Assembly: GCA_008081395.1 (NCBI GenBank)
Contig: VMCJ01000021.1
Coordinates: 1-39,344, forward strand
DNA from: Rhodospirillales bacterium
GTDB lineage: Bacteria > Pseudomonadota > Alphaproteobacteria > Bin95
Length of the DNA stretch: 39,344 nucleotides
Direction of reading: 5' to 3'
The notes beneath the pieces are model-generated. The model was given only the letters and a program-made list of their open reading frames with translations. It had not been told where the DNA came from and ran no database searches. The stretch's first letter is position 1, and each line of letters opens with the position of its first letter. The translations under genes and the position numbers were made by a program. Below are positions 13,570-30,910 of the stretch, piece by piece.

Positions 13570-14214
13570 TCAAGCAGATGTCACGCTACCACGCTCAACA
13601 ACATACATCCGGTCCAACAACTCCGCACAGTGTGCCGTATTAGACTCCGCGATAAGTATAGTTACGCCCTCTGCCTTTAAATTAGAGAGAATTTCAGACA
13701 TTCTCTTTGCTAGAGCCGGGGCAATTCCTTCCGAAGGCTCGTCCAAAAGCAGCATACGCTTGCCAACAAGAAGAGCGCGGGCAAGAGCAGCTAGTTTCTG
13801 CTGACCTCCAGAAAGACTAGTAGCCGGGCGATTACGAAACTCTCTGGCCTCCGGGATAAGTGAGTAAACCCACGCAAGCCTTGCTTCCCAGTCCTCAATT
13901 CCTACCGCCCAAACCGGGATCATGATATTCTCCTCCACCGTCAATGAAGGCACCAATTTGCGATCCTCTGGCATGTAGCCAAACCCAAGGCCAGCGCGTT
14001 TTTGTGAAGGCAAGACGGTTAAATCAACATTATCAAATTTCATTTGTCCTGAAACTGCGTTTAGCAATCCCATTAAAGAACGAAGAAAAGTCGTTTTGCC
14101 TGCCCCATTTCGCCCAATGAGACCAACCATTTCGCCGGCTTCAATACGTAGAGAAGCATCCTGCAGAATGCGGATTGGTCCGATATCCACGTTTAGTGTT
14201 TTAACTTCAAGCAT
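13570..14214 (-). CDS. livF: Branched-chain amino acid-type ABC transporter, ATPase LivF
   Basis: This is one of the two ATPases of a LIV-type importer. Walker A is GRNGAGKTT near residue 35, the signature is LSGGQQKLAALARAL, and Walker B is MLLLDEPSEGIAP, whose 'EGIAP' ending is typical of LivF. I place the start at the ATG at 14214 (MLEVKTLNV); the start 7 codons earlier is not needed. Its first 8 bases overlap the last codons of livG (ATGCTTGA arrangement), a mark of translational coupling. At 214 aa it is slightly shorter than the usual 230-240 aa, lost mainly at the C-terminus. It acts at the cytoplasmic face of LivHM. Confidence 0.92.
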   Translation of the reverse strand: MLEVKTLNVDIGPIRILQDASLRIEAGEMVGLIGRNGAGKTTFLRSLMGLLNAVSGQMKFDNVDLTVLPSQKRAGLGFGYMPEDRKLVPSLTVEENIMIPVWAVGIEDWEARLAWVYSLIPEAREFRNRPATSLSGGQQKLAALARALLVGKRMLLLDEPSEGIAPALAKRMSEILSNLKAEGVTILIAESNTAHCAELLDRMYVVERGSVTSA

Positions 14215-15001
14215 GAATAGCGTCTTCGCTAGCATTCATGTTGGGCGCATGCTCACCACCAATCACGTATTCAATAACTTGCGGATTTATAAGAGCTTCT
14301 GCTGGGGGAGCATCACATATAATTTCACCTTGGTAGAACGCTAGAACTCGATCTACGTAACGCTCGACGATCTCCATATCGTGTTCGACAAATAAAACGG
14401 TCGCTCCCTGCTCTCTAAGGGCCTGGATCACAATGTCCATTATTCCAAACTTTTCCTCAACCGAAACTCCTGAGGTTGGCTCATCCAGAAGGAGGATTTT
14501 GGGATTGGAAACTACCGCCATGGCAATATCCAGGAGTTTTCGCACCCCCTGGGAAAGGGTGCTGGCGACTTGGTCTCTATGACCAGTAATATTGTAGAGC
14601 TCCATCAACTTTTCACACTCAATCAGTAAATCAGGTGCTCTGGGAGACTGCAGCATCGCACGACCCGCTTGCTTACAGATTGAAAGCGCTGTCAGAAGGT
14701 TCTCTTCAACAGTCATGCTCATAAAGACCTGAGATACCTGAAATGAGCGGCAAACGCCCACATGGGTCGCATTCCTTGGCTCAATGCCTGTAATATCTTT
14801 GCCCTGAAATTCAATTTTACCGCTTGTGGGCTTTAGATAGCCCGTAATCATATTCACAAAAACAGTCTTACCTGCGCCGTTAGCTCCAATGATTCCAATG
14901 ATTTCTCCGTCTGCCGCCTCTACATTGAGGTTGTTGGCAGCCATTATGCCGGAAAAAGATTTACAGAGATCAGTGACCCTTAAAGCCGGCACTGCAGTCA
15001 T
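14207..15001 (-). CDS. livG: Branched-chain amino acid-type ABC transporter, ATPase LivG
   Basis: This is the second ATPase of the importer. Motifs are Walker A GANGAGKTV near residue 40, the ABC signature written LSQGVRKLLDIAMAV, Walker B KILLLDEPTSGVSVEEK and the switch His in LFVEHDMEIVERYVDRVLAFYQGEII. The ATG at 15001 overlaps the livM stop by 4 bases (ATGA), which decides the start over a much longer reading that would run 35 codons into livM. At 264 aa it is the normal LivG length. 'SGVSVEEK' replaces the commoner 'AGLN' after Walker B, as seen in several urea- or amide-type LIV paralogues. That could mean a substrate other than leucine, but this is only a weak hint. Confidence 0.92.
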   Translation of the reverse strand: MTAVPALRVTDLCKSFSGIMAANNLNVEAADGEIIGIIGANGAGKTVFVNMITGYLKPTSGKIEFQGKDITGIEPRNATHVGVCRSFQVSQVFMSMTVEENLLTALSICKQAGRAMLQSPRAPDLLIECEKLMELYNITGHRDQVASTLSQGVRKLLDIAMAVVSNPKILLLDEPTSGVSVEEKFGIMDIVIQALREQGATVLFVEHDMEIVERYVDRVLAFYQGEIICDAPPAEALINPQVIEYVIGGEHAPNMNASEDAIHA

Positions 15002-15954
15002 GATGAAACTCCTCTTCGCTTCCAAATTCGCTCTAACAAGGACCAGAGTCCCATCGGAAGGAAGAAAATGATGCCAAGTAAAGTGGCACCCACTATGAGT
15101 TGCCAAGCTTCAGGTGCGAGTTCAAAGGCGTAGGTTCTTAAAAATTCAAACGCAACACCACCAAGAAAAGGTGCGATAACGCTTCCTGGTCCAGCCATCA
15201 CAGTGATGAAGACCAACTCACCCGAAACCGGCCAATTCACCATTGAATCCGGATCTACTTGACCGAGCGCCATAGCAAGTAACGCACCAGAAGCTCCCGC
15301 CAATCCAGCAGACATAATATATTTTAGATGAATTGCTCGAGCGACTGAGAAGCCAAGGTATTCAACGCGAAGCTCGTTATCCCTGATAGCAGTCGTCAGG
15401 GTTCCAAGGGCAGTTTTTAGATAACATTGAACAAGAATAGCACCTACCGCACAGACAAAAACAATTGCAGCAAATAGGGCATATTTGTTCTCGGGGGTCC
15501 ATCCCAGGATAGTAGTTTGAGATACCGAAAATCCATCAGTTGACCCTAAGCTCTCGACCTTAACAAGGATACCGTACAGAACCATAGAAAATGCCAGATT
15601 AAGCATCGCAAAGAAGATTCCGCGATATTTTCTTAGAATAAAGCCTAGGAAAAAACCCACAAATGCGGAGGCACCAACCGCGAGGAATAACCTAAGAAAA
15701 ATATCCGAAATTCCAAAATTACGATCAACCAAACCCACCACATAGGCGCCAATGCCAAAGTAAAGAGCATGGCCAAATGAAATTAGTCCCGTTCTCCAAA
15801 GTACCATAAGACCCAGGACTGCAAGACCTCGCGCCAAACCAAACATAATGTTGTTTTGGACCCAGGCCTCCATAAAGTAGCCCGCGACAGCGAGCACGAA
15901 AAATCCGAGCACTGCCCATCGAATTGTGGCATCGTTTTTTAATATTTGGTTCAT
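14998..15954 (-). CDS. livM: Branched-chain amino acid-type ABC transporter, permease LivM
   Basis: An inner-membrane permease of 318 aa with about 8-10 hydrophobic segments. The conserved LIV permease motifs are present: GLISFGHALYFGIGAYVVG, RKYRGIFFAMLNLAFSMVLYGI and TAIRDNELRVEYLGFSVARAIHLKYIMSAGLAGASGAL, the last being the cytoplasmic EAA-like loop that docks on the ATPases. AGGAA 8 bases before the ATG at 15954 overlaps the end of livH, which stops 11 bases upstream. The 3' end overlaps livG by 4 bases. It works as a heterodimer with LivH. Confidence 0.93.
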   Translation of the reverse strand: MNQILKNDATIRWAVLGFFVLAVAGYFMEAWVQNNIMFGLARGLAVLGLMVLWRTGLISFGHALYFGIGAYVVGLVDRNFGISDIFLRLFLAVGASAFVGFFLGFILRKYRGIFFAMLNLAFSMVLYGILVKVESLGSTDGFSVSQTTILGWTPENKYALFAAIVFVCAVGAILVQCYLKTALGTLTTAIRDNELRVEYLGFSVARAIHLKYIMSAGLAGASGALLAMALGQVDPDSMVNWPVSGELVFITVMAGPGSVIAPFLGGVAFEFLRTYAFELAPEAWQLIVGATLLGIIFFLPMGLWSLLERIWKRRGVSS

Positions 15955-15965
15955 TAGTTAGGTTC

Positions 15966-16865
15966 CTAAATTGTCCGAGCCTTAGGAGGCGCAAAAAGCC
16001 CTTCAGGACGAACGATTAAGACACCTGCCATTACGGCAAAAACAACAAAAAGCTCCAACTCAGGAAATTGATGGACGGCAACAGCTCGTAAAACGCCAAC
16101 CAGAATTGAGCCAATTAATGCTCCAGGGATTGAACCCATACCTCCGATTACAACAACAGCGAAGCTAAGAACAATGACATCAATGCCAAACCCCGGTGCC
16201 ACTGATGTAGTTGGTGCCACATAAGCTCCACCAAGCGCGCCAAGTGCAGCCCCAATGATAAATACTATGAGGTAAACAGCGGAGACATTAATACCCATAG
16301 CCTGACTTATTTCTCGATCATAAATCACGACAGCTATTAATTTGCCCCATTTTGTCTTGGTTAGAACCCACCAACAGCTAACCGCTACCACGAGAGCCAG
16401 AGCAAAAAGTGTCAGAGAGTATACATCGCGAAACACTCCGCCAATTACAACGTTTCCAAGCACAGCCATTGGTTGATAGGCAAAATAAGGATCAACTCCA
16501 AAAACTAAGAGTATGGCGTCCTCCAAACAGAGAAACACACCAAAAGTTGCAAGTGCAATTAAAACCTCGTCCTGGGCATACATTCGACTAAGAACCAATC
16601 GTTCTAAAATGGTACCTAGGACCAATCCAACAATGATGGAGGACGCAAAAATCAAAAGGAAACCGATCCAGTCGGGATAACCTAACTCTCCCGCTTGGGT
16701 TATCGAAAACGCTGCCGCATAGGCCCCCCAAGCGTAAAATGCCCCATGAGCAACATTCAGGATCTTAAGAACCCCAAAGACAATAGTGAGGCCTACTGAG
16801 ACAATAAACAGGAATGAGGCATAGTTCAGTCCGTCTAAAAGGATAGTCACGACCTGAGCCAACAT
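15966..16865 (-). CDS. livH: Branched-chain amino acid-type ABC transporter, permease LivH
   Basis: An inner-membrane permease of 299 aa with about 8 membrane segments. LivH hallmarks are LNYASFLFIVSVGLTIVFGVLKILNVAHGAFYAWGAY at the N-terminus, ISQAMGINVSAVYLIVFIIGAALGALGGA in the ATPase-contact loop and VIGGMGSIPGALIGSILVGVLRAV near the C-terminus. A strong AGGAGG lies 9 bases before the ATG at 16865. It is separated from the binding-protein gene by 100 bases holding a stable hairpin, a common layout that lets the binding protein be made in excess. Confidence 0.93.
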   Translation of the reverse strand: MLAQVVTILLDGLNYASFLFIVSVGLTIVFGVLKILNVAHGAFYAWGAYAAAFSITQAGELGYPDWIGFLLIFASSIIVGLVLGTILERLVLSRMYAQDEVLIALATFGVFLCLEDAILLVFGVDPYFAYQPMAVLGNVVIGGVFRDVYSLTLFALALVVAVSCWWVLTKTKWGKLIAVVIYDREISQAMGINVSAVYLIVFIIGAALGALGGAYVAPTTSVAPGFGIDVIVLSFAVVVIGGMGSIPGALIGSILVGVLRAVAVHQFPELELFVVFAVMAGVLIVRPEGLFAPPKARTI

Positions 16866-16911
16866 GGTCGAGCGCCTCCTATCACAAAGGTAAGCAATAT
16901 TTGAGTGGCAA

Positions 16912-16939
16912 GCCGAGGTAATTTTTGGGTATCCTCGGC
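16912..16939 (-). other. Intercistronic stem-loop between the binding-protein gene and livH
   Basis: A perfect 7-bp GC-rich inverted repeat, GCCGAGG (16912-16918) and CCTCGGC (16933-16939), has a 14-base loop. It lies 26 bases after the stop of the substrate-binding gene. On the transcribed strand it is followed by TTGCCACTC, not a T run, so it is more likely an mRNA 3'-end stabiliser or partial attenuator than a full terminator. Such elements typically raise binding-protein mRNA relative to the permease genes. Confidence 0.55.
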
Positions 16940-16965
16940 CAACCTCCTAATTGTGATACACTACC

Positions 16966-18288
16966 CTAGTTGCACTTTGCACCAGGCATTCCTGCGTTGA
17001 GCCAATCCTCCGAGAGGATCCCTTCAGGAGGATTTATACATTCAGCACCATAAAATCTAACTTTCTCAACCCCTGGCTCGCCCTTTTTGGCATCCCACTT
17101 CGTTAGACCATAACCTACCGGATGTATTGCCTGTCGACCTTTAGCAAGAGCCATTGAGACTTCCCCATCGAAGCTCTGGAAGCTAATACCCTTCAATGAT
17201 TGCATAACTTCATCTTGGCTTGGAAATCCGCCAGCTGCTTGAGCTGCTTTGTCCATTCCTAGCTTGTAATAAAGGATTGCTTTTGCATATTGATAAGAGG
17301 GGGCAAGCGGATAAACGCCATACTTGGTTTTGTACTCACGAACGAACCATGCATTGAGAGGATCACTGAGATCATTGCGCACTAGCAAGCCATACTTGCC
17401 TCGCGTGCCTATTACGACGCCATCGGGAATTTTTTTACCCAAACTATCTACGGCAGACGCACCGGTCACTGAGACTAACTTCTTTTGCTGAAAGAAGCCT
17501 CGGACCATTCCTTGGAGCATAAATGCTTCAATATCACCATCCCAAAACGAAGTATGCACCACTGCCGACTTGTCCAGAAGCATGGTTGAAATTTCAGCTG
17601 AGTATTGACCAGAGAACAGCTTAGGAAACTGTGGTTTACTTGAAGCCTTGCTTGTTGGATCAAGCTTCTGCATCGCTAGGCTATAAAATTTCCAGCTATC
17701 CTGACCCCAAGCATAATTTTGATTTATTCCAGTGTAAGTCTTAAGTTCCGGGAACATCTCGATCATATAACGAGCTGCAGCAATAGAATCACCAACAGCG
17801 TTTCCTTGGGTCCTGAATACATGGGAACGATCTTTTTCCTCGAAGAGACGCGGAGTGCCACAAACTGACATTATGGTCAGCTTCTGTAACTCATCGGCTA
17901 TTGGTGCAATTGCCATACATGACCCAGACGATATGTACCCAATAACGGCATCAACCTTTTGCTTCTCAACCAGATTTCGATACTCTGCTACCTGCTTGGC
18001 ACCACCTCCAGATTCATCAATAAAAAGAGGCTCTAACGTGGCCCCACCAAAACCTTTTGAATTGTGAGGAGCAGGCAACGTACCAGCATTGATTGCGTCA
18101 ATGACCAATTCAGCACCATTTTTTCCAGGCACTCCAAATGGCCCAGCTGCAGGCCCACTTAAAAAAGTTACAACCCCCACCTTGATAGTATCTTTTGCAG
18201 ATGCAGACCCTGTCGTCACAGCAGCAAGCAGAAGGCAACTTGCCAACGCTGCAAGACGAGGTTTAGCTCGCTTCAGTATATTCACCAT
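16966..18288 (-). CDS. LIV-type ABC transporter substrate-binding protein
   Basis: This periplasmic type I binding protein (Peripla_BP_6 family) feeds the LivHMGF importer. The ATG at 18288 begins a signal peptide (RAKPRLAALASCLLLAAVTTGSASA), while the frame extended to 18333 would put 15 unneeded residues ahead. AAAGG lies about 9 bases upstream. The mature protein begins KDTIKVGVVTFLSGPAAGPFGVPGKNGAELV, the standard first strand-helix, and continues with VDAVIGYISSGSCMAIAPIADE and VFRTQGNAVGDSIAAARYMIE. The pair of cysteines in GSCMAIAP and SVCGTPR, and two more near the C-terminus, could form disulphides. At 440 aa it is longer than LivJ/LivK (about 370), as in binding proteins for aromatic, amide or short-chain substrates. 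Ligand unknown, so no symbol is given. Confidence 0.88.
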   Translation of the reverse strand: MVNILKRAKPRLAALASCLLLAAVTTGSASAKDTIKVGVVTFLSGPAAGPFGVPGKNGAELVIDAINAGTLPAPHNSKGFGGATLEPLFIDESGGGAKQVAEYRNLVEKQKVDAVIGYISSGSCMAIAPIADELQKLTIMSVCGTPRLFEEKDRSHVFRTQGNAVGDSIAAARYMIEMFPELKTYTGINQNYAWGQDSWKFYSLAMQKLDPTSKASSKPQFPKLFSGQYSAEISTMLLDKSAVVHTSFWDGDIEAFMLQGMVRGFFQQKKLVSVTGASAVDSLGKKIPDGVVIGTRGKYGLLVRNDLSDPLNAWFVREYKTKYGVYPLAPSYQYAKAILYYKLGMDKAAQAAGGFPSQDEVMQSLKGISFQSFDGEVSMALAKGRQAIHPVGYGLTKWDAKKGEPGVEKVRFYGAECINPPEGILSEDWLNAGMPGAKCN

Positions 18289-18310
18289 GTTCTTGTACCT
18301 TTTGCTAAAA

Positions 18311-18334
18311 TTTGAAGACGCTCCAACGTCCAAA
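18311..18334 (-). other. Weak bulged hairpin between ggt-like gene and binding-protein gene
   Basis: TTTG-AA-GACG and CGTC-CAAA arms around CTCCAA form an 8-bp stem with a two-base bulge. On the transcribed strand it is followed by TTTTAGC. It could cause partial termination before the binding-protein gene, but the energy is low and the T run is short. Confidence 0.25.
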
Positions 18335-18355: not shown

Positions 18356-19945
18356 CTAGTAGCCCAAAGCTATTCCATCTTTACGAGGATCTGATCCACC
18401 GACGAGAGTGCCATTCTTGTGATCGATGAAGATAGCCTGTCCACCACCATGTGGCATTCCAATATTTGTTATTTTATGACCACGGCTGGCCAATATCTCT
18501 GCCGCAACCTTGCTAATGCCGCGCTCCACCTCAACGTTACCCTCGAACGCGAATATCCTAGGCAGATCCATCGCTTCTTGCGGGTCTAGACCAAAGTCAA
18601 ACATGGAGGAAAGTGTCCATGCATGCCCTACGGGTTGGAAATGCCCACCCATGACCCCGAATGGCATTACAGGTCGCGAGTCTTTGGCTACCATTCCAGG
18701 AATAATGGTATGCATGGGCCGCTTCTTCGGCTCAATTTGGTTTGGGTGCCCATCTTCGAGGGTAAAGCCAAAACCTCGATTTTGGAGAATAACACCCGAC
18801 TTAGCTGCAACAATACCGCTACCAAACCCCTTAAAGAGACTATTGATAAACGAACAAGCGTTACCGTCAGCATCAACAACGGAGATGTAAACAGTGTTGC
18901 CTTGCGGAGGCATGCCAGCCGGCGGCAAATCAGAGGCCGCATGCATATCATCAATAGAAGTTACAAGCTTAGCGGCGTAGTCCTTCGAAAGAAGAATATC
19001 TAATGGAACATCAGAAAATGCTGGGTCAGCAATGAAAGCATTTCGGTCACGGTATGCGAGCTTTGTTGCCTCTATAAGATGATGAAGCCTTGTTACATCA
19101 AGTGGCGCTCCAGCTATTGGCAATGCTTCCAACATATTGATTAAGAGTAGAGCAATTGCCCCAACACCATTGGGTGGCAATTCAAAAACATCATATCCAC
19201 GGAAGGTCGAATGTATTGGATTTACATACTCCCCGGAGTGTTCTGAAAAATCAGATAGATCGTGCAATCCACCCTTAGTGTTTAACGTGGCGATAATATC
19301 TTCCGCTACTGCACCCTCATAGAAAGCACTTCGACCTTTCTCAGCGATCGCTCTCAAAGTGGCCGCAAGAGCAGGTTGCCTGAAGTTTTCACCTACGGTT
19401 GGAAGCTTACCCGCGGAATTGAAGTATACTTCCCGCGCGCCCGTATCCTTAGAGAGCTTTCCATACCCATTTGCAAAGTCGACGGCTGTGCGCTCATGGA
19501 CAGCAAAACCCTCTTGTGCATAACGAATTGCAGGCTGAAGAATTCGATCTAAACCCAGACGCCCGTGATCTCGAGATAGTGTTTCCCAAGCATCTATAGC
19601 ACCAGGGACTGTAACGACATGAGCACTAGTGGGATCTAATTCCCTGATACCCTGATCTTTAAAGAATTCGATATTTGCTTTGGCTGGTGCGCGACCTGAA
19701 CCATTGAAGCCTATTGGAACTGCGGCATTAGAGGGTTGATAAAGACAAAAGCAATCACCTCCAATTCCTGTTGAACCAGGCTCGGTTACACACTGGACCG
19801 CACAAGCGGCAATTGCAGCGTCCAAAGCATTTCCACCTGCCATGAGGATTTCAATTGCAGCCAGCGTAGACGATGGCTGACTAGTAGATGCCATGGCATT
19901 TCCCGAACGGGCGGCTGACCTGCCAGGCATGTGAAGATCACGCAT
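18356..19945 (-). CDS. Gamma-glutamyltransferase family protein (N-terminal nucleophile hydrolase)
   Basis: The protein is of the gamma-glutamyltranspeptidase family, which is made as a precursor and cut by itself before a Thr that becomes the nucleophile. Thr351 in GNTVYISVVDADGNACS is that residue (TVYISVVD against TTHYSVVD in E. coli Ggt). Also visible are GGNALDAAIAACAVQCVTEPGSTGIGGDCF (34-65), PPNGVGAIALLLINMLE (257-273), KRPMHTIIPGM and the FGVMGGHFQPVGHAW block. At 529 aa the length is normal, giving subunits of about 350 and 179 residues. No signal peptide is present, unlike periplasmic Ggt, so it is probably cytoplasmic; cephalosporin-acylase-like amidase activity is also possible. 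GAGGA 7 bases before the ATG supports this start. It heads the ggt-liv-dehydrogenase run. Confidence 0.87.
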   Translation of the reverse strand: MRDLHMPGRSAARSGNAMASTSQPSSTLAAIEILMAGGNALDAAIAACAVQCVTEPGSTGIGGDCFCLYQPSNAAVPIGFNGSGRAPAKANIEFFKDQGIRELDPTSAHVVTVPGAIDAWETLSRDHGRLGLDRILQPAIRYAQEGFAVHERTAVDFANGYGKLSKDTGAREVYFNSAGKLPTVGENFRQPALAATLRAIAEKGRSAFYEGAVAEDIIATLNTKGGLHDLSDFSEHSGEYVNPIHSTFRGYDVFELPPNGVGAIALLLINMLEALPIAGAPLDVTRLHHLIEATKLAYRDRNAFIADPAFSDVPLDILLSKDYAAKLVTSIDDMHAASDLPPAGMPPQGNTVYISVVDADGNACSFINSLFKGFGSGIVAAKSGVILQNRGFGFTLEDGHPNQIEPKKRPMHTIIPGMVAKDSRPVMPFGVMGGHFQPVGHAWTLSSMFDFGLDPQEAMDLPRIFAFEGNVEVERGISKVAAEILASRGHKITNIGMPHGGGQAIFIDHKNGTLVGGSDPRKDGIALGY

Positions 19946-20185: not shown

Positions 20186-21955
20186 TCAAGAAGGTTTGAA
20201 TTGAAGCTTTGCCAGGCGAGCATAAAGACCATCAGAGGCCATTAGGCTTTCATGTGTGCCTTCCGAAACAATTTGACCTTGATCAAGAACCAATATTCGA
20301 TCTGCATTCTGCACGGTTGCGAGACGATGTGCGATAACGAGGGTAGTTCTATTTTTTTGTAATCGCTCCAAGGCAACCTGGACACGTCCTTCGCTCTCAG
20401 AATCAAGAGCGCTGGTTGCTTCGTCAAGTAATAGAATTGGAGGATCACGCAAAATTGCACGAGCAATTGCAAGTCTCTGACGCTGCCCTCCGGATAACCT
20501 TACCCCTTTTTGCCCTAGATCTGACTGAAACCCTTCAGGCATTGCCTCAATAAATTCCAATGCCGCCGCTGCCTCAGCTGCCGCACGAACTTCAAGATCG
20601 GAGGCGTCTGGTCTTCCGAAGCGAATGTTCTCGGCAACAGTCGTTGAGAAAATAGCCGGCTCTTGAGGCACAAAGCCAAAATTGCCTCTAAGTGCAGGTG
20701 GATCCATTGCGGAAGTTTCGATCCCATCTAGCATGATTTTGCCAGTCTGCGGATCATAAAAGCGGAGTAAGAGCTGGAAAATTGTAGTCTTTCCTGCTCC
20801 TGATGGACCAACTAATGCTACGGTCTCTCCTGATTGGATTGTAAAAGAGATTTTATGGAGCGCTGGTGTTTCAGGTCGGGCCGGATAATTAAACGAAACA
20901 TCCTCAAAACTAATATCACCTTTAGATGGTTTTGATGGATTAACGGGGTTGTCGGGTGATTTGATCATCGGCTCTTCAACCAATAATCCTAATAATCGCT
21001 CTGTAGCTCCCGCAGCTCTCTGAAGGTCACCCCAAACCTCACTTAAAGCACCAACTCCTCCAGCCGTAACCACAGCGTAAAACACAAAAGCTGATAGCTC
21101 ACCGCCTGTCATCTCACCCGACAAAACCATCCGACCGCCTAACCATAGGACAAAACCGACAGCTCCAAATACTAGTAAAATCACAGTGGCGGTTAGCCAT
21201 GCTCGAGCTCTAATTCTCCGCACGGCACCAGAAAATGCATGTTCAAGCCTTGAAGAGAAACGTCCTAAATCTGCTTGCTCCTGGGCGAAAGCTTGAACAA
21301 TACGGATCGCATTGACACTCTCTTCAACATGCTCAGATACTGCGGCAATACGGTCTTGATTTTCACGACTTAAGCGCCTGACTTTACGTCCAAATATTAT
21401 TATGGGAGCGACAACAACTGGGATAGCTACCGCCGTCGCGCCTGTTAATGATGGACTTGCGATAGACATCAAAATCAAGCCGCCAATTACAAGCAGAAAA
21501 TTTCGTGCAGCAATGGAGGCAGCAGAACCAATGACTGTCTGAATTACTTCGGCATCAGCTGTCAAACGTGATAGGACTTCACCTGTGGGCCTCGTCTCAA
21601 AGAATGCCGGACTAAATTGAAGTACTCTTGCGTAAACGGCACGGCGCAGGTCAGCAACAACGCGTTCGCCAATCCATGTCACGAGAAAATATCTACCAAA
21701 CGTACCTAACGCGAGCAGTACGATCATAACCGCAAGCCATAATAGCGCAGAATTCAGTACACTTGGATCATTAGCTGAAAAGCCAAAATCAATGAGCTTT
21801 CGCAGCCCCATGCCGATAGTCAGAACGGCGCCAGCGGCAAGAAATAATGCCAATAAGGCTGCAAAAATCCTAGCTTTATATGGCTTAAGAAATGGCCCCA
21901 ACATTAGAAGTGGCTTCAAGTCACTTCTTCGTCTCACAGGCGCTTTATTGGTCAC
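20186..21955 (-). CDS. ABC exporter, fused membrane and ATPase domains (MsbA-like type IV)
   Basis: A 589-aa half-transporter that works as a homodimer. About six membrane helices occupy residues 25-320, followed by the nucleotide-binding domain: Walker A GPSGAGKT (383-390), Q-loop near QEPAIF (431-436), signature LSGGQ (487-491), Walker B ILLLDE (507-512) and the switch His in AHRLA. It resembles the ABCB/MsbA-like lipid or multidrug exporters common in Alphaproteobacteria. The start is GTG at 21953-21955 with an AAAGGG about 12 bases upstream; no in-frame ATG precedes it, and the next Met is at residue 18. It stands 91 bases after the CaiB-like gene, so co-transcription is possible but not required. 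Substrate unknown; lipid A flipping would be one guess. Confidence 0.9.
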   Translation of the reverse strand: MTNKAPVRRRSDLKPLLMLGPFLKPYKARIFAALLALFLAAGAVLTIGMGLRKLIDFGFSANDPSVLNSALLWLAVMIVLLALGTFGRYFLVTWIGERVVADLRRAVYARVLQFSPAFFETRPTGEVLSRLTADAEVIQTVIGSAASIAARNFLLVIGGLILMSIASPSLTGATAVAIPVVVAPIIIFGRKVRRLSRENQDRIAAVSEHVEESVNAIRIVQAFAQEQADLGRFSSRLEHAFSGAVRRIRARAWLTATVILLVFGAVGFVLWLGGRMVLSGEMTGGELSAFVFYAVVTAGGVGALSEVWGDLQRAAGATERLLGLLVEEPMIKSPDNPVNPSKPSKGDISFEDVSFNYPARPETPALHKISFTIQSGETVALVGPSGAGKTTIFQLLLRFYDPQTGKIMLDGIETSAMDPPALRGNFGFVPQEPAIFSTTVAENIRFGRPDASDLEVRAAAEAAAALEFIEAMPEGFQSDLGQKGVRLSGGQRQRLAIARAILRDPPILLLDEATSALDSESEGRVQVALERLQKNRTTLVIAHRLATVQNADRILVLDQGQIVSEGTHESLMASDGLYARLAKLQFKPS

Positions 21956-22046: not shown

Positions 22047-23444
22047 TTAATGATCCCAACGAGCCTCATGAGCATTTAAAGGAGAAGCCGGCAAATCCCA
22101 CCTTGGTGGAGTATCGGAGAGTTCCGTCGCCATTGGGACTCTGCGGACCTGACCATAAGGGCCATTTTCTTCTATCATATGCGCCGCAACGCTTGATTTC
22201 GATGGGGCCTTCGCATTAATGGCGTCAATCTCTCCTAAGTCTTCAAGCCATCTTCCGGTCCAAGCTAGCGCTGTACGGACGCGCCAAGCACCCCCTTCTT
22301 CCCGTTGACGCTTTAAAGCACTCATCGCGGCAGCCGCCATTAAGTACCCACATCCATGATCGAGAGCCTGAGCTGGCAGAGACTTTGGTGCCCCATCTAC
22401 AAGACCAGCCGCTCGACCTCCTGCTTCGGCAATACCGGAGACCGTTTGCACTATAGAGTCAAACCCGCGCCTAGATGCCCAAGGCCCCTCATAGCCAAAA
22501 GCACAAAGGGTTACAGACACGATAGAAGGATTAATTTCTTTCACTGCGTTGGGCCCAAGACCCGCTTTATCGAGCGATCCAGGCCTATACCCTTGAACCA
22601 CGATATCGGCCTCGCCAACCAGTTTTTCAAATACCTTCCGACCTTCAGCCGTCTTAACATCTAGCATGGCATTTCGCTTACCTGCTCCACCATCAAGGAC
22701 AAGTGGACCACGATCCGGATATCTAGGTGGGGTTATCCTCAGCACGTCAGCACCAAATGCTGCGAGCGTGCGACCGCAAACTGGTCCAGCTATCACTCGT
22801 GTCATATCAAGCACGCGGATACCTGACAGCGGTCTAGTAGGGGAACTTTTCCATGGCTTAGGATCTGCCTCGCCAAAACGTTCGATCTCCGTTAAGCGCG
22901 CACCCTCTAGAGCACGCCCTTGGGGGGTCCCCCTCCATTCAGATTTTGATCGCATCATTCCACCGGGAAGACCGTGATCAATCATGACTTGCTCAACCTC
23001 AAGACCAGTCATTTTGTTTAAAACTGACTGCATCCCAGCTCGAGAAATAGGGGCTCGAAACGCAGCGGTTGTAGCTGCCATATGATGGGTGTAATTGCAG
23101 TGGAGTTGGACCCATCGCCCATCGCCGCATCTATAATGCCCGGAAATATCATCCCAAATGTATTCGGGCTCGACTCCCACTACATGAACGTGACGTTCCG
23201 AATTAAAACCAATGGAAGCAGCCTCACGGTTTACAGAGATTGTTTGGTTACGTCCGGTTCGCGCTCGCCATACTTCAGCTGCAGCAAGTCCCGCAGCTCC
23301 CTCAGTAACTTGAGCGCAGAGGCCAACTTTGAAGGCAGAGGGCAAACCGGGTCCTTCTCCGGAGAAACTTATACTTGACGTAGCTTCTGAGCATCCAAGC
23401 TCCGCCCAAACATCAGCAAAGACCTTCGATGTTTCACTAACCAT
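22047..23444 (-). CDS. CaiB/BaiF-type (family III) CoA-transferase-like protein with swapped halves
   Basis: The 465-aa protein contains family III CoA-transferase sequence, but in unusual order. Residues 30-130 (VTEGAAGLAAAEVWRARTGR...HYRCGDGRWVQLHCN) match the middle of classical CaiB proteins, and residues 205-350 (PLSGIRVLDMTRVIAGPVCGRTLAAFGADVLRITPP) match the usual N-terminus. The position of the catalytic Asp of formyl-CoA transferase (VDVSLLD-like) reads ISVNREAA in the first part and VRTALAW in the second, so the classical nucleophile seems absent. Similar 460-480-aa proteins are common in Proteobacteria and mostly uncharacterised. The ATG is 3 bases after the TPP-enzyme stop, so the two are coupled. 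CoA transfer is inferred from the fold only. Confidence 0.78.
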   Translation of the reverse strand: MVSETSKVFADVWAELGCSEATSSISFSGEGPGLPSAFKVGLCAQVTEGAAGLAAAEVWRARTGRNQTISVNREAASIGFNSERHVHVVGVEPEYIWDDISGHYRCGDGRWVQLHCNYTHHMAATTAAFRAPISRAGMQSVLNKMTGLEVEQVMIDHGLPGGMMRSKSEWRGTPQGRALEGARLTEIERFGEADPKPWKSSPTRPLSGIRVLDMTRVIAGPVCGRTLAAFGADVLRITPPRYPDRGPLVLDGGAGKRNAMLDVKTAEGRKVFEKLVGEADIVVQGYRPGSLDKAGLGPNAVKEINPSIVSVTLCAFGYEGPWASRRGFDSIVQTVSGIAEAGGRAAGLVDGAPKSLPAQALDHGCGYLMAAAAMSALKRQREEGGAWRVRTALAWTGRWLEDLGEIDAINAKAPSKSSVAAHMIEENGPYGQVRRVPMATELSDTPPRWDLPASPLNAHEARWDH

Positions 23445-23447
23445 TGC

Positions 23448-25142
23448 CTATACCGCTCCGGCTGCTCGGGAAACTTCTTCCATCTTTTCCAATGTAGTAG
23501 TGGTTGAAATAATGTTTGGATCCATCTTTATGTTGATTACCGCAGGCCTTCCCGAAGCCAAAGCTCGGTCAAGAGCAGGTCCAAATTCGGCTGTTTTTTC
23601 AACTGTTTCTCCATGACAGCCATAAGCCTCAACCAACTTATGGAAATCAGGATTCTTAAGCTCAATTGCTATTGCACGACCTGGATGACGCTTTGCTTGG
23701 TGTGCACGAATGGTGCCATACATCCCGTTATTGAAAAGAAAAATCACTGGATTGCCGCCGTATTGGGCTGCGGTGGCTAATTCTTGACTGGTCATCATGA
23801 AACCGCCATCTCCAACGAAACCAAAAACCTTACGATTGGGAAATGCTAAGGCTGCTCCAACAGCGGCTGGCACTGCATAGCCCATCGCCCCACTGGTAGG
23901 AGCCGCAAATGTATGTAGTTGTTGGAATTGCATATAACGCATAGCCCAACCAGAAAAATTACCCGCATCAACAGTTACGATTGAGTCAGCATCAGCCCTT
24001 TTACGGATTTCTGCCATGCACGTTGCAAGGTCAAGATCTCCATCCGCGGCAACTGGAGTTGCCCATTTTTCAAAATCAGCTCTAGCTGTTGCTCGCCAAT
24101 CAGCCCATGGGACCTGACTACTTTTGAGTGCTTTTGCTGCTGCAGCGAAGGAGGACATGCCAGACTGAATGCCAAGGTCAGGTTGATAAACACTTCCTAT
24201 TTCTTCGGCAGATGCATGGATATGTATAAACTTCTTTGACGGCTTAGGACTGTCCATCATGGAATAGCCCTGGGTAGTAATTTCACCAAGCCGTGCACCA
24301 ATCACTAAAAGCAAATCAGCATCTTTCACCATTTGGAGAAGCTTTGGAGCAGGTGCAGTTGAAAGGTCTCCAACAAAGCGATCACCAAAATGGTTAATGA
24401 TATCCAGGCGGCGAAATGAGCAAGCCACTGGAAGGTCCCAAGTTTTAGCAAAACTTTGGATATCGTTAGCTGCCTGCTGACTCCATCCACCACCACCAAC
24501 AACCATTAAAGGCCGCTCTGCGTTCTTTAACATTTCAGCCATAGATTGCATGTCTTCTGTGCTCGGCGCAGCACGGGTGTACCGATAAGGAGCTGCATCA
24601 GCCACACTTGAAAAATCACGGAGCATGTCTTCTGGTAACGCCAATGCAACCGGACCAGGCCTGCCTGACATGGCGACAGAAAAAGCACGAGCAATATATT
24701 CCGGGACTCGCTCCACATCCTCAATCTGCGCGGTCCACTTTGTGACCTGACCAAGCATTCTCCTATAGTCAATTTCTTGAAAAGCTTCGCGATCAAACTG
24801 ATCTCGCGCCACCTGACCAATAAGCATTATGAGTGGGGTAGAATCTTGGTAAGCAGTGTGAAGTCCAATAACTCCATGACAGGCACCTGGTCCCCGGGTA
24901 ACCATCACAACACCCGGCTTACCAGTTAATTTGCCATAGGCTTCAGCAGCATTGGCAGCACCTGTCTCATTTCTACAAGTGTAAAGCTTGAAATCTTTAT
25001 GATCATAAAGCGCGTCCAAAAGCTCCAGATAACTCTCACCTGCCACGCAAAATGCAGTGTCACAGCCATGAATACGAAGCTGATCCGCTAAGACCTGGCC
25101 ACCGTTTCGCATATTAGTATTAGCCTTAGTTGAGTCGGACAT
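23448..25142 (-). CDS. Thiamine-diphosphate-dependent enzyme of the acetolactate synthase superfamily
   Basis: The three domains of the POX/ALS family are all present in 564 aa. The cofactor-activating Glu59 lies in CRNETGAANAAEAYG, the central domain follows at about 180-340, and the C-terminal domain has the ThDP motif GDG (444-446) ... NN (471-472). AGGAG 7 bases before the ATG at 25142 fixes the start; the longer frame to 25205 would lose it. It is not a clear IlvB: no ilvN follows and conserved ALS active-site stretches differ. Partner context (a CaiB-type protein 3 bases downstream) recalls the oxalyl-CoA decarboxylase/formyl-CoA transferase pair, but its sequence is not close to Oxc. 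A 2-oxoacid decarboxylase or 2-hydroxyacyl-CoA lyase are both possible. Confidence 0.85.
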   Translation of the reverse strand: MSDSTKANTNMRNGGQVLADQLRIHGCDTAFCVAGESYLELLDALYDHKDFKLYTCRNETGAANAAEAYGKLTGKPGVVMVTRGPGACHGVIGLHTAYQDSTPLIMLIGQVARDQFDREAFQEIDYRRMLGQVTKWTAQIEDVERVPEYIARAFSVAMSGRPGPVALALPEDMLRDFSSVADAAPYRYTRAAPSTEDMQSMAEMLKNAERPLMVVGGGGWSQQAANDIQSFAKTWDLPVACSFRRLDIINHFGDRFVGDLSTAPAPKLLQMVKDADLLLVIGARLGEITTQGYSMMDSPKPSKKFIHIHASAEEIGSVYQPDLGIQSGMSSFAAAAKALKSSQVPWADWRATARADFEKWATPVAADGDLDLATCMAEIRKRADADSIVTVDAGNFSGWAMRYMQFQQLHTFAAPTSGAMGYAVPAAVGAALAFPNRKVFGFVGDGGFMMTSQELATAAQYGGNPVIFLFNNGMYGTIRAHQAKRHPGRAIAIELKNPDFHKLVEAYGCHGETVEKTAEFGPALDRALASGRPAVINIKMDPNIISTTTTLEKMEEVSRAAGAV

Positions 25143-27143: not shown

Positions 27144-27155
27144 CTATTCTGCAGC
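27132..27155. terminator. Perfect hairpin spanning the two convergent stop codons
   Basis: GCTGCAGAATA (27132-27142) and TATTCTGCAGC (27145-27155) form an 11-bp perfect palindrome with two central bases; sterically a 10-bp stem with a 4-base loop is likely. It contains the last codons of both typA (Ala-Ala-Glu-TAA) and hyuB (Ala-Ala-Glu-TAG). It works equally for either strand but lacks a T run on both sides, so true terminator function is uncertain. Confidence 0.45.
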
Positions 27156-28775
27156 CATTAACCCATCTTCAATATCTCTATGGGTCCTTGCATTAGGACG
27201 CTCCTGGGGAGGCCCATATCCTCCCCCGGCTGCAGTTTGAACAATCAGTCGATCACCTTTGCGAAGAGAAAATTGGCATTTGGAAGGAAGATCGATTGTC
27301 TCCTCTCCTCGAATTACTTGGTTCTGTGCCGTAGAGCCTGAATGACCGCCAAATATTCCATCTGCGGCAATTTTAAATCGATCACCATAAGTGGCAAACG
27401 TGACCCCATCCTCGAGTATTTCGTAAACCTTTCGGAAAGCCAGCCCACCGCGCATGCGGCCACGACCAGCAGAATCCTTTATAAAGCTATAATCAATACA
27501 TCTAAAAAATTGGTGATCCATGTCTGTTGCTTCAACAGGAATGTTGGCGCAATTTGATAAAGGGCTATCCGCGCCGTCTATCCCATCATTTCTAGGCCCT
27601 GCTCCATATCCGCCCCCAAAGATCTCTAAATAAATGTCATAACCATCTGGCCCTAACCAGGACAAACAGCACGCTGTTGTAGTGTCAGTACCTGTTGCAA
27701 TAACGCTCTCCGGAGTAGCTTTTGAAAGTGCCTTCATCACAGCATCAAATGCTCTGTAACTAGGTAAAAGGCGTGCCCGAACTGGTGCTGGGTAGCGAGG
27801 ATTTAAGATAGACCCCTCTGGAGCTTTTACTGATATTGCTCGCGAACAACCGTCGTTAAATGGAATGTCAGGATCAGTCAAAACAGATTTTACAGCTGCC
27901 ACTGCGGCGGAGACCGTTGAGGCAAACGGATTATTCATATTGGAATTGACTTGATCGCTTGTACCAGAAAAATCGATAGCCATAGTGTCACCTGCGATGG
28001 TTACACTTGCTTTCACTTTGATGGGCCCTGACCCCTGACCATCATCATCAATTGCATCTTCACCTTTAAATATTCCATCCGGCGCAGCTCGAAGAGCGTT
28101 ACGTATCCGACGTTCAGAGTAGTCGAGCATCTCACTCATTGCTGCAGCGAGCTTAGATGATCCATATTTGTTAGCGAGCGCGATTAATCTCTCAGCACCT
28201 ACTGCATTGGCGGCAAATTGAGCATCTATGTCGCCAAGGGTTGCATCAGGCATACGCACATTGGCTCGAACGAAAGTTTCCCATGGGCCACGAACCCAAT
28301 CCCGGTCCCTATTTAGTTTAAGGGCAGGAAATATAAGACCCTCTGAATGGATGTCGGTCGCATTAGGATTAAGACCAGGCGCTCCTCCCCCAAGATCTAT
28401 ATGATGAACGACAGTCGCTGAAAAACCAATTCGCTGCTTTTGGAAAAATATTGGACTGAAAAGGAAAATATCCTGGATATGCTGTCCACCAAGATAAGCG
28501 TCGTTAGTGATGAAAAAATCACCCTCTTCTAAAGAGTCTAATTCATGACGTTCTGAGCAGTATCGAAAAGTGTGCGTTATGGATCCCAATTGCATCGGTA
28601 TAAGTTCTGCTTGTGCTACGACGCTTCCATCTGATGTCATCAAAGCAGCAGAGCAATCCTCAGCCTCCCGCACTATGGGAGAATGAGCAGATCGTATTAA
28701 CTTTGCACCCATTTCTTGGGCGGCTGCGACAAGCGATTGCGCAATCACAGCTTGTTCGAGCGGGTCAAGAGCCAT
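27144..28775 (-). CDS. Hydantoinase B / 5-oxoprolinase B-family subunit
   Basis: The 543-aa protein is the HyuB-type subunit of ATP-dependent amidohydrolases (N-methylhydantoinase, 5-oxoprolinase) and related carboxylases. Typical blocks are SPIVREAEDCSAALMTSDGSVVAQAELIPMQLGS, GDFFITNDAYLGGQHIQDIFLFSPIF, FSATVVHHIDLGG and QTAAGGGYGPP at the end. It begins 3 bases after the hyuA stop with GGAAG in reach of the ATG, so the subunits are coupled. No HyuC or racemase is nearby. The choice between 5-oxoproline, hydantoins or a ketone-carboxylase substrate cannot be made from sequence. Confidence 0.9.
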   Translation of the reverse strand: MALDPLEQAVIAQSLVAAAQEMGAKLIRSAHSPIVREAEDCSAALMTSDGSVVAQAELIPMQLGSITHTFRYCSERHELDSLEEGDFFITNDAYLGGQHIQDIFLFSPIFFQKQRIGFSATVVHHIDLGGGAPGLNPNATDIHSEGLIFPALKLNRDRDWVRGPWETFVRANVRMPDATLGDIDAQFAANAVGAERLIALANKYGSSKLAAAMSEMLDYSERRIRNALRAAPDGIFKGEDAIDDDGQGSGPIKVKASVTIAGDTMAIDFSGTSDQVNSNMNNPFASTVSAAVAAVKSVLTDPDIPFNDGCSRAISVKAPEGSILNPRYPAPVRARLLPSYRAFDAVMKALSKATPESVIATGTDTTTACCLSWLGPDGYDIYLEIFGGGYGAGPRNDGIDGADSPLSNCANIPVEATDMDHQFFRCIDYSFIKDSAGRGRMRGGLAFRKVYEILEDGVTFATYGDRFKIAADGIFGGHSGSTAQNQVIRGEETIDLPSKCQFSLRKGDRLIVQTAAGGGYGPPQERPNARTHRDIEDGLMAAE

Positions 28776-28778
28776 GAA

Positions 28779-30806
28779 TCAAACTTCCTTTTGAATAAGG
28801 ATGTTACCGGATGGATCAAGACGAGTTGACCATCCAACAGGGATAAAGACTGTCGCAAAACCATCATCGATCAGTATTGGGCCATGAATCACTTTTTCTT
28901 TCAAAGCCGCTCGAGAAACTAACAACGCCTTATGTGTTTTTCCACGTTCAAAAAGTTCAATTTCAGTTTCAACTGCCTCATCAAAATTCAGAGATGTTTC
29001 AGGAAATGCTGGTGGTGCCAATGAGCCTCCAGCCCTGTAGGCAACAATTTCAATTGCTTCCCCCTTGGGTTTAGCAAAGGAATACAACTGCTCATGGGCC
29101 TTTCTGAATAGATTTTCCAAATCTTCATGAGAGAGATTAGGTAAGTCGGACTCAGAAATGCTTACCGGCGCTTCAAACGCTTGGCCTCGATAACGCATAT
29201 CCAACAGGTAAGAAAAAGTATCTGGTTGTTGTATCTTATGATCAGCAAAATGAGATTTGATTGAATCATTCAGTGCTGTGAAATGCTTTCGTACTATCTC
29301 TGGTGCGGCCGAGTTCAGTGGTTGCCTATCTGTAAGTGCGTCATACCTAGCATAGTCTGCAACAAGCAACCCAAGGGCCGATAATACCCCAGCAAAGGGA
29401 GGTATAATAACAGATGAAAGCCCAATCTCTTCGGCAACACGGACCGCGTGCATTGGTCCTGCACCACCAAATGCGACTAATGAGTAATCTCTGGGGTCCC
29501 GACCACGTTCAGTCGATATCCGCTGAATAGCACGCGCAATATTGGACTCCGCAAGCTGGATGGCCGCGTCTGCTATTTCTAAAATTGATTTACCAAATTG
29601 GTTGGCTAGAGATTCAAACGATCTGCGCGCTTTTTCAACGTCTAAATGCATATCCCCAGCCAGGAAGGCTTCAGCTTGCATAGTTCCACGCACGACATGA
29701 GCATCAGTGATAGTTGGAGCCATTCCACCTCTACCATAACATGCGGGACCAGGGTCAGCGCCAGCACTCTCAGGTCCCACCCGCAACATACCTCCATCGT
29801 CTATCCAAACGAGTGAACCACCACCCGCCCCAACAGTAGCCATGTCAATGACGGGGGTTTTGACGGGCAGACCGCCAATCTCAGTAACTGAAGCTAAAGA
29901 AGGTTGACCATCGGGAGCCAGGCAAACGTCCGTCGAAGTGCCTCCCACATCTAAAGTAATAAAGTTTTTGTGACCTGAACGTGCAGCTTGTCGAACTGCG
30001 CCCACCACCCCAGCAGCTGGACCGGAAAATAAGGCAGAAATTGCATTCTCTGCCATAGCGGCGGCCGGCATTCTTCCACCATTGGACTGCATCACCGAAA
30101 ATGCCCCATCGAAGGCTTGTTCAGTGAGCGTAGCCTCAAAACGCTTAAGGTATCGACTAACTACTGGCTGAACATACGCTGAAAGAGTAGTTGTCGAGGC
30201 TCTTTCATATTCTCGAAATTCTTGTGCGACTTTATGAGATGGTGCCGTTGGCATTCCTGGAAACATCTCTTCTATAATTCGAACGAGGGACTCTTCATGT
30301 AAGGGATTTACGAAGCTATTAAGAAGACAAATCGCGACAGCATCAAATTCTCTCTCCCCAAGGACGGAAAGAATAGATTTGCGCGCATCTGTTTCATTCA
30401 GTGCGGTTACTATTTCCCCATTAGGGCCAAGTCGCTCTTCAACTTCTATCGTATCACGCCGACGAACAACGGGCTCAGGCTTTTCATAGTGAAGGTCATA
30501 GATCCTGCGTCGTTGGTGCCGCTGAAGAAGCAAAAGATCTCTGAATCCTTTGGTTACTATCAGCGCAACCCTTGCGCCCTTCCTTTCTAAGATAGCGTTC
30601 GTAGCCACGGTTGAGCCATGAGCCAGTTCACCAAGGCCTGCAATGTCAACGCCACCTTTGATTAACGCATTAAAAGCACCCTGATCAGGCGACTGCGGCG
30701 TAGAGGGTGCTTTTGCAACTGCAATGCGCCCGTTTTCCACGTATACAAGATCCGTAAAAGTTCCGCCTACCTCAACCCCCGCGCGCGAAAAACTGACCGT
30801 CAACAT
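28779..30806 (-). CDS. Hydantoinase A / 5-oxoprolinase A-family subunit
   Basis: The ATP-binding (actin-like ASKHA fold) partner of HyuB. Signatures are GVEVGGTFTDLVYVE at the N-terminus (phosphate loop), HGSTVATNAILERKGARVALIVTKGFRD near 60-90, LFSGPAAGVVGAVR near 260, ITLDVGGTSTDVCLAPDG near 285 and GAGGGSLVWIDDGGMLRVGPESAGADPGPACYG. At 675 aa it is a normal HyuA length. The ATG at 30806 has AGGAGG only 2 bases away; the next codon, TTG, would have better spacing (5 bases), so the true start may be one codon later, while the ORF extended to 30848 adds 14 unconserved residues. A 236-base gap separates it from aspS, so it likely has its own promoter. Confidence 0.9.
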   Translation of the reverse strand: MLTVSFSRAGVEVGGTFTDLVYVENGRIAVAKAPSTPQSPDQGAFNALIKGGVDIAGLGELAHGSTVATNAILERKGARVALIVTKGFRDLLLLQRHQRRRIYDLHYEKPEPVVRRRDTIEVEERLGPNGEIVTALNETDARKSILSVLGEREFDAVAICLLNSFVNPLHEESLVRIIEEMFPGMPTAPSHKVAQEFREYERASTTTLSAYVQPVVSRYLKRFEATLTEQAFDGAFSVMQSNGGRMPAAAMAENAISALFSGPAAGVVGAVRQAARSGHKNFITLDVGGTSTDVCLAPDGQPSLASVTEIGGLPVKTPVIDMATVGAGGGSLVWIDDGGMLRVGPESAGADPGPACYGRGGMAPTITDAHVVRGTMQAEAFLAGDMHLDVEKARRSFESLANQFGKSILEIADAAIQLAESNIARAIQRISTERGRDPRDYSLVAFGGAGPMHAVRVAEEIGLSSVIIPPFAGVLSALGLLVADYARYDALTDRQPLNSAAPEIVRKHFTALNDSIKSHFADHKIQQPDTFSYLLDMRYRGQAFEAPVSISESDLPNLSHEDLENLFRKAHEQLYSFAKPKGEAIEIVAYRAGGSLAPPAFPETSLNFDEAVETEIELFERGKTHKALLVSRAALKEKVIHGPILIDDGFATVFIPVGWSTRLDPSGNILIQKEV

Positions 30807-30910
30807 CGCCTCCTGACCAAAAATCAGCTGAAAGCTTAGTAAACCCACACGCCAAGGGATAGATCATAGAAATCAATTAATATTTGGACTTAAAAGCCTT
30901 TTCCCGAAGA

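Follow-up and report, generated by a model that had tools for sequence, protein, structure and literature searches.

A 39,344-nucleotide (nt) contig of a Rhodospirillales bacterium (GenBank VMCJ01000021.1, all of which we call the window) carries a gene for a CaiB/BaiF-type coenzyme A (CoA)-transferase directly behind one for a thiamine-diphosphate (TPP) enzyme. We consider it likely that the CaiB protein is a working aspartyl-CoA transferase with a new topology, encoded in a young catabolic operon together with a TPP enzyme that cleaves 2-oxo acids. Its small domain has moved to the N terminus, its presumed catalytic aspartate is retained, and the unusual order recurs in many genomes. An earlier reading of the same DNA (the original prediction) had placed the two genes 3 bases apart, and both open reading frames (ORFs) were confirmed, with the TPP stop codon and the CaiB ATG separated by 3 nt (23445-23447).

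22047-23444, minus strand: CaiB/BaiF-type (class III) CoA-transferase with relocated small domain, 465 amino acids (aa) (ORF; PF02515; colinear relatives)
23448-25142, minus strand: TPP enzyme, 564 aa, NCBIfam NF006052 (PRK08199) (NF006052 score; three TPP-enzyme Pfam domains)

Canonical class III CoA-transferases run large domain (N-terminal part), small domain, large domain (C-terminal part). The CaiB protein of the window does not keep this order and instead reads small domain, large domain (N-terminal part), large domain (C-terminal part). The whole protein matches PF02515 at E 2e-52 (179 bits against a cut-off of 23.3), with the match split into two stretches: residues 37-133 correspond to PF02515 positions 159-261 (E 0.0011), and residues 206-396 to positions 1-198. 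We also used hhalign to compare a 41-row alignment of the family with a profile of 11 ordinary CaiB proteins, headed by Escherichia coli formyl-CoA transferase (Frc) and including YfdE, with 30 column shuffles per segment as controls. Residues 7-181 aligned with Frc 137-355 (E 3.9e-10, score 74.3 vs. a shuffled maximum of 17.8) and residues 203-406 with Frc 2-213 (E 5.5e-49, score 342.7 vs. 23.5), and a weak match joined residues 413-461 to Frc 347-394 (E 4.9e-4, score 28.5 vs. 14.8). The first 75 residues alone, a second copy of the Asp region, scored 30.7 (E 2.7e-4; shuffled maximum 14.5). In Frc numbering, the chain therefore reads about (137-355)(2-213)(347-394).

22896-23426, minus strand: residues 7-183, predicted to correspond to Frc 137-355 and now N-terminal, with a degenerate Asp-helix region followed by the small domain (hhalign)
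22248-22847, minus strand: residues 200-399, predicted nucleophile-bearing N-terminal part of the large domain, matching Frc 2 to ~207 (hhalign; Rv3272; partial model)
22062-22208, minus strand: residues 413-461, matching Frc 347-394 and predicted to be the C-terminal part of the large domain, directly following the N-terminal one (hhalign; low-confidence model)

The predicted order is backed by two methods, Pfam and hhalign with shuffled controls. The original prediction had described the conserved halves as reversed. A non-canonical order was indeed found by both methods, but because the tail at 413-461 matches the normal C terminus, the small domain appears to have been relocated rather than the halves swapped. 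On these sequence grounds, we place the protein beside the canonical class III CoA-transferases, as a relative with rearranged domains. It also scored far below the formyl-CoA transferase models (110.5 bits vs. a cut-off of 442 for NF003809 and 106.8 vs. 504.2 for TIGR03253), and the TPP enzyme shares 24.5% identity with E. coli oxalyl-CoA decarboxylase (Oxc), in agreement with the earlier statement that both proteins are distant from Frc and Oxc.

The relocated protein retains the residue expected of a catalyst. Its best sequence match in the PDB was Rv3272 of Mycobacterium tuberculosis, with residues 200-392 matching Rv3272 residues 4-205 in phmmer (E 7.1e-30). Here, Asp362, in a QALDHG motif, faces an Asp of 5yit that is replaced by Ala in 5yiy, the structure titled as the D175A mutant of Rv3272, and the profile comparison with E. 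coli Frc likewise set Asp362 opposite Asp169. Asp362 was Asp in 47/47 rows (the window protein and 46 relatives) and in 55/55 after we added eight plasmid-borne proteins from Beta-, Alpha-, and Gammaproteobacteria, a cyanobacterium, and Streptomyces. The 47-row alignment covers matches assigned a locus and omits two duplicates (L001 and L055) and a partial match (L054). In the first copy, Leu42 lies opposite Frc Asp169, and this column is variable (E 18, T 11, D 10, A 7, L 4, V 2, and 3 others in 55 rows).

22359-22361, minus strand: codon of Asp362, the predicted catalytic nucleophile, which corresponds to Frc Asp169 and Rv3272 Asp175 (alignments; D in 55/55 rows)
23319-23321, minus strand: Leu42 codon, Asp-equivalent position in the degenerate N-terminal copy (alignment to Frc; not conserved)

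The original prediction held that the catalytic Asp was missing at both candidate positions. This was correct for Leu42 but not for Asp362: alignment recovers an invariant Asp where class III enzymes carry the catalytic one, on the last helix of the large domain. The prediction had itself named such an outcome as refuting it, and the claim of a missing nucleophile is corrected. The most likely reading of the sequence is that the protein is a working class III (CaiB/Frc family) CoA-transferase. Separately, two residues of the small-domain part, His115 and Trp170, were invariant in 55/55 rows, with Glu151 kept in 52 and Arg165 in 53; all four are candidates for binding residues special to the relocated subfamily. 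The position of the racemase catalytic His (MCR His126) is occupied by Phe328, according to a reading by eye only.

Structure prediction of the CaiB protein with superposition matched its large domain to CaiB-fold structures but gave no confident full-length model. An AlphaFold2 run on a 2-sequence alignment reached a mean predicted local distance difference test score (pLDDT) of 30.2 and a predicted template-modelling score (pTM) of 0.20, and this model was left unused. A second run on 12 rows reached a mean pLDDT of 40.7 and a pTM of 0.43, with ten-residue blocks in 201-310 spanning 26 to 82. Its input comprised the window protein, L055, and fragments from 10 of 11 viral-contig CaiB loci (L114 excluded), and the ten fragments cover the large domain only. 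In this second model, residues 203-455 superpose on MCR 2-337 (9i2u; Z 13.8, root-mean-square deviation [rmsd] 3.4, 170 residues) and residues 203-449 on YfdE 7-351 (4hl6; Z 13.6, rmsd 3.9, 174 residues), both in chain order. These superpositions would trace the large domain of canonical enzymes and pass over the small domain inserted in it, although we use them cautiously, as coming from a weak model and its large-domain part only. The other top structural matches end at residue 398, and Foldseek TM-scores by query length were 0.30-0.33 among the 50 matches listed.

The anomalous order is a conserved and widespread feature of a family, and is therefore more interesting than first stated. At a threshold of E 1e-50 or better, colinear matches spanning both parts were present in 47 of 289 sampled genomes of the class and 28 of 299 of the phylum (the window's own genome is counted in each sample, and a few rows are partial). 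Among plasmids, 551 records had a match and 32 of these had one place covering at least 80% of the protein, across several phyla. The seven annotated plasmid records that we examined all name the protein plainly “CoA transferase,” and two further plasmid records carry no annotated features. Viral-contig searches returned no relocated-domain relative, and a contig scan with a single protein query found one locus. Within the window's own genome, a second relocated-domain paralogue lies at C8:32549-33883 (33% identity), and contig C71 holds a 767-aa open frame bearing two CaiB matches. In the open-licence literature, as far as its searchable text goes, we found no rearranged or “circularly permuted” class III transferase, which is not proof that none has been published; the same literature yielded nothing on CaiB with thiamine pyrophosphate and operon, nor on PRK08199.

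The neighbourhoods of these relatives vary widely, on plasmids and at the other loci alike. The relocated-domain gene lies near ABC (ATP-binding cassette) transporter genes on a Ruegeria plasmid, near citrate-synthase-family genes on Azospirillum and Ewingella plasmids, near tricarballylate dehydrogenase and aconitase genes on a Shinella plasmid, and near a four-carbon acid sugar kinase gene and pdxA on a Caballeronia plasmid. The citrate-synthase-family gene is divergent to the relocated-domain gene on the Ewingella and Azospirillum plasmids alike (L121 and L122). We rejected citrate synthase as a fixed partner because it occurs in only 2/7 annotated plasmid neighbourhoods. At one further locus (L095, genome G095), the relocated-domain gene sits among biotin-carboxylase and carboxyltransferase-like genes, by sequence reading, and a distant TPP enzyme (27%) is encoded nearby.

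If the family is catalytic, its chemistry would follow that of Frc and Mct, with Asp362 attacking an acyl-CoA to give an acyl-aspartyl anhydride and then an aspartyl-CoA thioester, from which CoA would pass to a second carboxylate. This route through an aspartyl anhydride and aspartyl-CoA is described for class III transferases (PMC9813914). The topology would be new. The canonical active site is formed by the large domain of one subunit and the small domain of its partner. Two papers describe class III CoA-transferases as interlocked dimers whose subunits are threaded through each other (PMC3720670, PMC9813914). Because the halves of the large domain are now contiguous in the window protein, the ring that is threaded by the partner subunit in canonical dimers is probably open, and the threading hole would not form in the same way. 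And with a large and a small domain united in one chain, the enzyme could conceivably be single-chain or non-threaded. Judged from segment order, a widespread natural class III CoA-transferase that is un-interlocked, and possibly a single-chain enzyme with a single site, is a reading that we consider possible rather than probable. If it is true, the aspartyl-CoA mechanism would not require the interlock. A large natural subfamily with an order expected to prevent linkage would allow the role of the interlock in catalysis, stability, and folding to be tested directly, and it may offer a worked example of a domain-swapped dimer resolved into one chain. As to how the order arose, we suggest, weakly, a tandem duplication followed by complementary loss, in which copy one would have kept the small domain and a decayed Asp region, while copy two would have kept the large domain with the nucleophile.

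The second gene of the pair appears to encode a separate and intact enzyme, probably one that cleaves 2-oxo acids. It is a confident member of NF006052 (784.5 bits vs. a cut-off of 539), a family that carries no specific function, and all three TPP-enzyme Pfam domains are present. The next models are acetolactate synthases, and the protein falls below the cut-off of every such model among the best 25 of 58.

24966-24968, minus strand: Glu59, presumed catalytic Glu (E in 54/54 rows, window included; aligned with E. coli Oxc E54)
23805-23813, minus strand: Gly444-Asp445-Gly446, TPP/Mg binding motif (columns with 97% or higher identity across 54 rows)

The roles of Glu59 and of the GDG motif are those we assume from general knowledge, and with these residues near-invariant in 54 rows, the predicted TPP active site is intact. 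Phe121-Gln122 stand where E. coli Oxc has Tyr118-Glu119, with the Gln kept in 54/54 rows and the Phe in 53. Relatives of the TPP enzyme adjoin flavin adenine dinucleotide-binding oxidoreductase, TRAP transporter, and larB genes on two of the three roseobacter plasmids examined, and one in genome G116 adjoins saccharopine and aldehyde dehydrogenase genes by sequence reading. These neighbourhoods suggest a 2-oxo-acid-cleaving enzyme.

We surveyed the linkage of the two genes in a family sample of 14 genomes, five of them from the window's genus. In four genus genomes, the genes are adjacent and co-directional, with gaps of 3 nt, 3 nt, and 7, 19, or 34 nt (according to which start codon is used) and, in one case, an ATGA stop/start overlap; CaiB identity within the genus is 69-83%. 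The fifth genome (G290, 83% complete) was uninformative, as its TPP gene is cut by a contig edge and it has no CaiB match at E 1e-50. In a sister genus (G291), the TPP (69%) and CaiB (48%) orthologues lie on different contigs, and no partner was seen in the flank. The eight genomes of another genus have no close TPP orthologue (best 37%). Across all CaiB relatives, whose flanks reach at most 1.5 kb and are sometimes cut by contig ends, the partner TPP gene was in the flank of 3/46, all genus members; at L019, a distant TPP gene (27%) lies tail to tail with the CaiB relative. When we compared match coordinates by hand in the 32 genomes with both genes, the genes were adjacent in 3 (all of the genus), 6-21 kb apart in 3 (G116, G093, and G095), and far apart or on different contigs in 26.

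Viewed from the TPP side, a CaiB-type gene lay within 400 nt of 7/55 loci, namely, 4/5 genus loci and 3/50 others (L129, L133, and L139). We counted these neighbours by tblastn with neutral queries because predicted genes misread some GC-rich loci (14/53 had no TPP call), and a number of the loci are short or truncated by a contig edge. The three outside the genus encode normal-order CaiB proteins of 400-422 aa on the same strand; a rough estimate of the chance expectation is ~0.5 in 50, and the three cases come from two taxonomic families only. At L127 and L132, a CaiB-type gene lies 2.4 kb away on the opposite strand. Two of the three loci, L133 and L139, belong to one other family and share a run of an enoyl-CoA-hydratase-like gene (sequence reading), a normal-order CaiB gene, and a TPP relative, a separate TPP/CaiB pairing. 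The coupled pair of the original prediction thus stands within the genus, where adjacency and direction are kept in 4/4 informative genomes, but not as a general partnership, since no such adjacent pair was seen outside the genus in this sample. The TPP coupling is real and, on this sample, confined to one genus, in which the two genes are probably translationally coupled in an apparent catabolic operon.

We tentatively propose that the TPP enzyme decarboxylates a 2-oxo acid derived from transported amino or hydroxy acids and that the transferase makes the CoA thioester of the resulting acid once this has been oxidised elsewhere, a scheme we put forward as possible rather than probable. An undescribed 2-oxoacid or hydroxyacyl-CoA pathway, as originally suggested, may exist. 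A tighter arrangement would be a cycle like that of Frc and Oxc, in which a 2-oxo or 2-hydroxy acid would be converted to its CoA thioester by the CaiB protein, and cleavage of this thioester by the TPP enzyme would return formyl-CoA or another acyl-CoA to the transferase. The close linkage resembles that of E. coli frc and oxc, which lie side by side in the same orientation, and the same-strand normal-order CaiB genes beside TPP relatives in 3/50 non-genus loci, two of them preceded by the enoyl-CoA-hydratase-like gene, point the same way, as does the non-adjacent 6-21 kb spacing in 3/32 genomes. However, the TPP enzyme has only the 24.5% identity to Oxc noted above, and its best named subfamily is NF006052, followed by acetolactate synthase models below their cut-offs. 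The Tyr-Glu pair beside the TPP site is, we presume, important in Oxc. Because the window enzyme has Phe121-Gln122 in its place, a strict cycle of this kind is less likely than separate decarboxylation and thioester steps, and we regard it as unlikely.

A more serious challenge is that the pair could be a neighbourhood accident of the genus, with the enzymes acting in unrelated pathways. No adjacency was seen outside the genus, and the host draft genome (2.57 Mb in 176 contigs) contains 38 CaiB-type matches, a few genes giving two, so that chance neighbours would not be rare. Set against this, the pair has been kept in all four informative genus genomes across their range of CaiB identity, with junctions that are very short or overlapping, and TPP relatives have CaiB neighbours in two other families. 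An accident is a reading we take seriously while doubting it. The view of the original prediction, in which a CaiB protein without a nucleophile serves the TPP enzyme by binding or scaffolding a CoA thioester, finds a trace of agreement in the degenerate Asp position at Leu42. It is contradicted by an Asp362 present in 55/55 rows, and a dedicated scaffold is hard to reconcile with a TPP partner in the flank of 3/46 relatives, all from the genus; we consider it highly improbable.

Several results weigh against a working transferase of new topology within a catabolic operon, the reading that we prefer. Neither AlphaFold2 run produced a confident whole-protein model (mean pLDDT 30.2 and 40.7), and residues 1-135 and 141-203 fell under a pLDDT of 50. 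The N-terminal PF02515 stretch taken alone reaches 18.6 bits, below the 23.3 cut-off. In a direct comparison of the two Asp-region copies, the expected register scored 19.9 against a maximum of 18.9 in 50 shuffles, too weak a difference, and we rejected a direct demonstration of the duplication on this basis. There was also no aldehyde dehydrogenase or aminotransferase among the window proteins scanned, though the proposed route needs them. Finally, no fixed partner was seen around the relocated-domain CaiB family in the seven annotated plasmids and the flanked loci.

The genes surrounding the pair in the window are given below.

20186-21955, minus strand: MsbA-related ABC exporter (TIGR02204, 838.7 bits; synteny)
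18356-19945, minus strand: gamma-glutamyltransferase (PF01019, E 6e-137; synteny)
13570-18333, minus strand: branched-chain-amino-acid/urea-type ABC uptake genes (binding protein PF13458; Liv/Urt model matches)

The exporter, followed by the gamma-glutamyltransferase, lies downstream of the pair in the same order in all four genus loci. Within the uptake region, one ATPase and one permease match Liv/Urt models with scores below the cut-offs; the permease at 15001-15954 had no model match at 1e-30, and the ATPase at 13573-14235 was assigned from sequence reading alone. Hydantoinase/oxoprolinase A and B type genes occupy 27147-30848 on the minus strand, and their nearest named models are caprolactamase subunits, with scores far below the cut-offs. 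Together with the gamma-glutamyltransferase, these genes suggest amide or gamma-glutamyl catabolism around the pair.

Compared with known systems, the CaiB protein resembles Frc/YfdW and YfdE in its large-domain sequence, in the equivalence of Asp169 and Asp362, and in the fold class of the partial model. It differs from them in that their small domain is inserted between the halves of the large domain, whereas that of the window protein is N-terminal and accompanied by a second, degenerate Asp region. Rv3272 (PDB 5yit/5yiy) shares the residue that was mutated, Asp175, opposite Asp362, but it has the canonical order, and its residues 250-338 only faintly match the N-terminal part of the window protein. 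Tandem CaiB proteins, among which we count DddD, also have two CaiB-derived copies per chain and could represent a plausible intermediate; the 767-aa frame on C71 has two CaiB matches in the same way. Such proteins are presumed to retain two largely complete copies, whereas in the window protein each copy appears to have lost what the other kept. The TPP enzyme, for its part, differs from Oxc in having a Phe-Gln pair in place of Tyr-Glu, and from the acetolactate synthase group in falling below those model cut-offs (among the best 25 of 58) and passing that of NF006052 instead.

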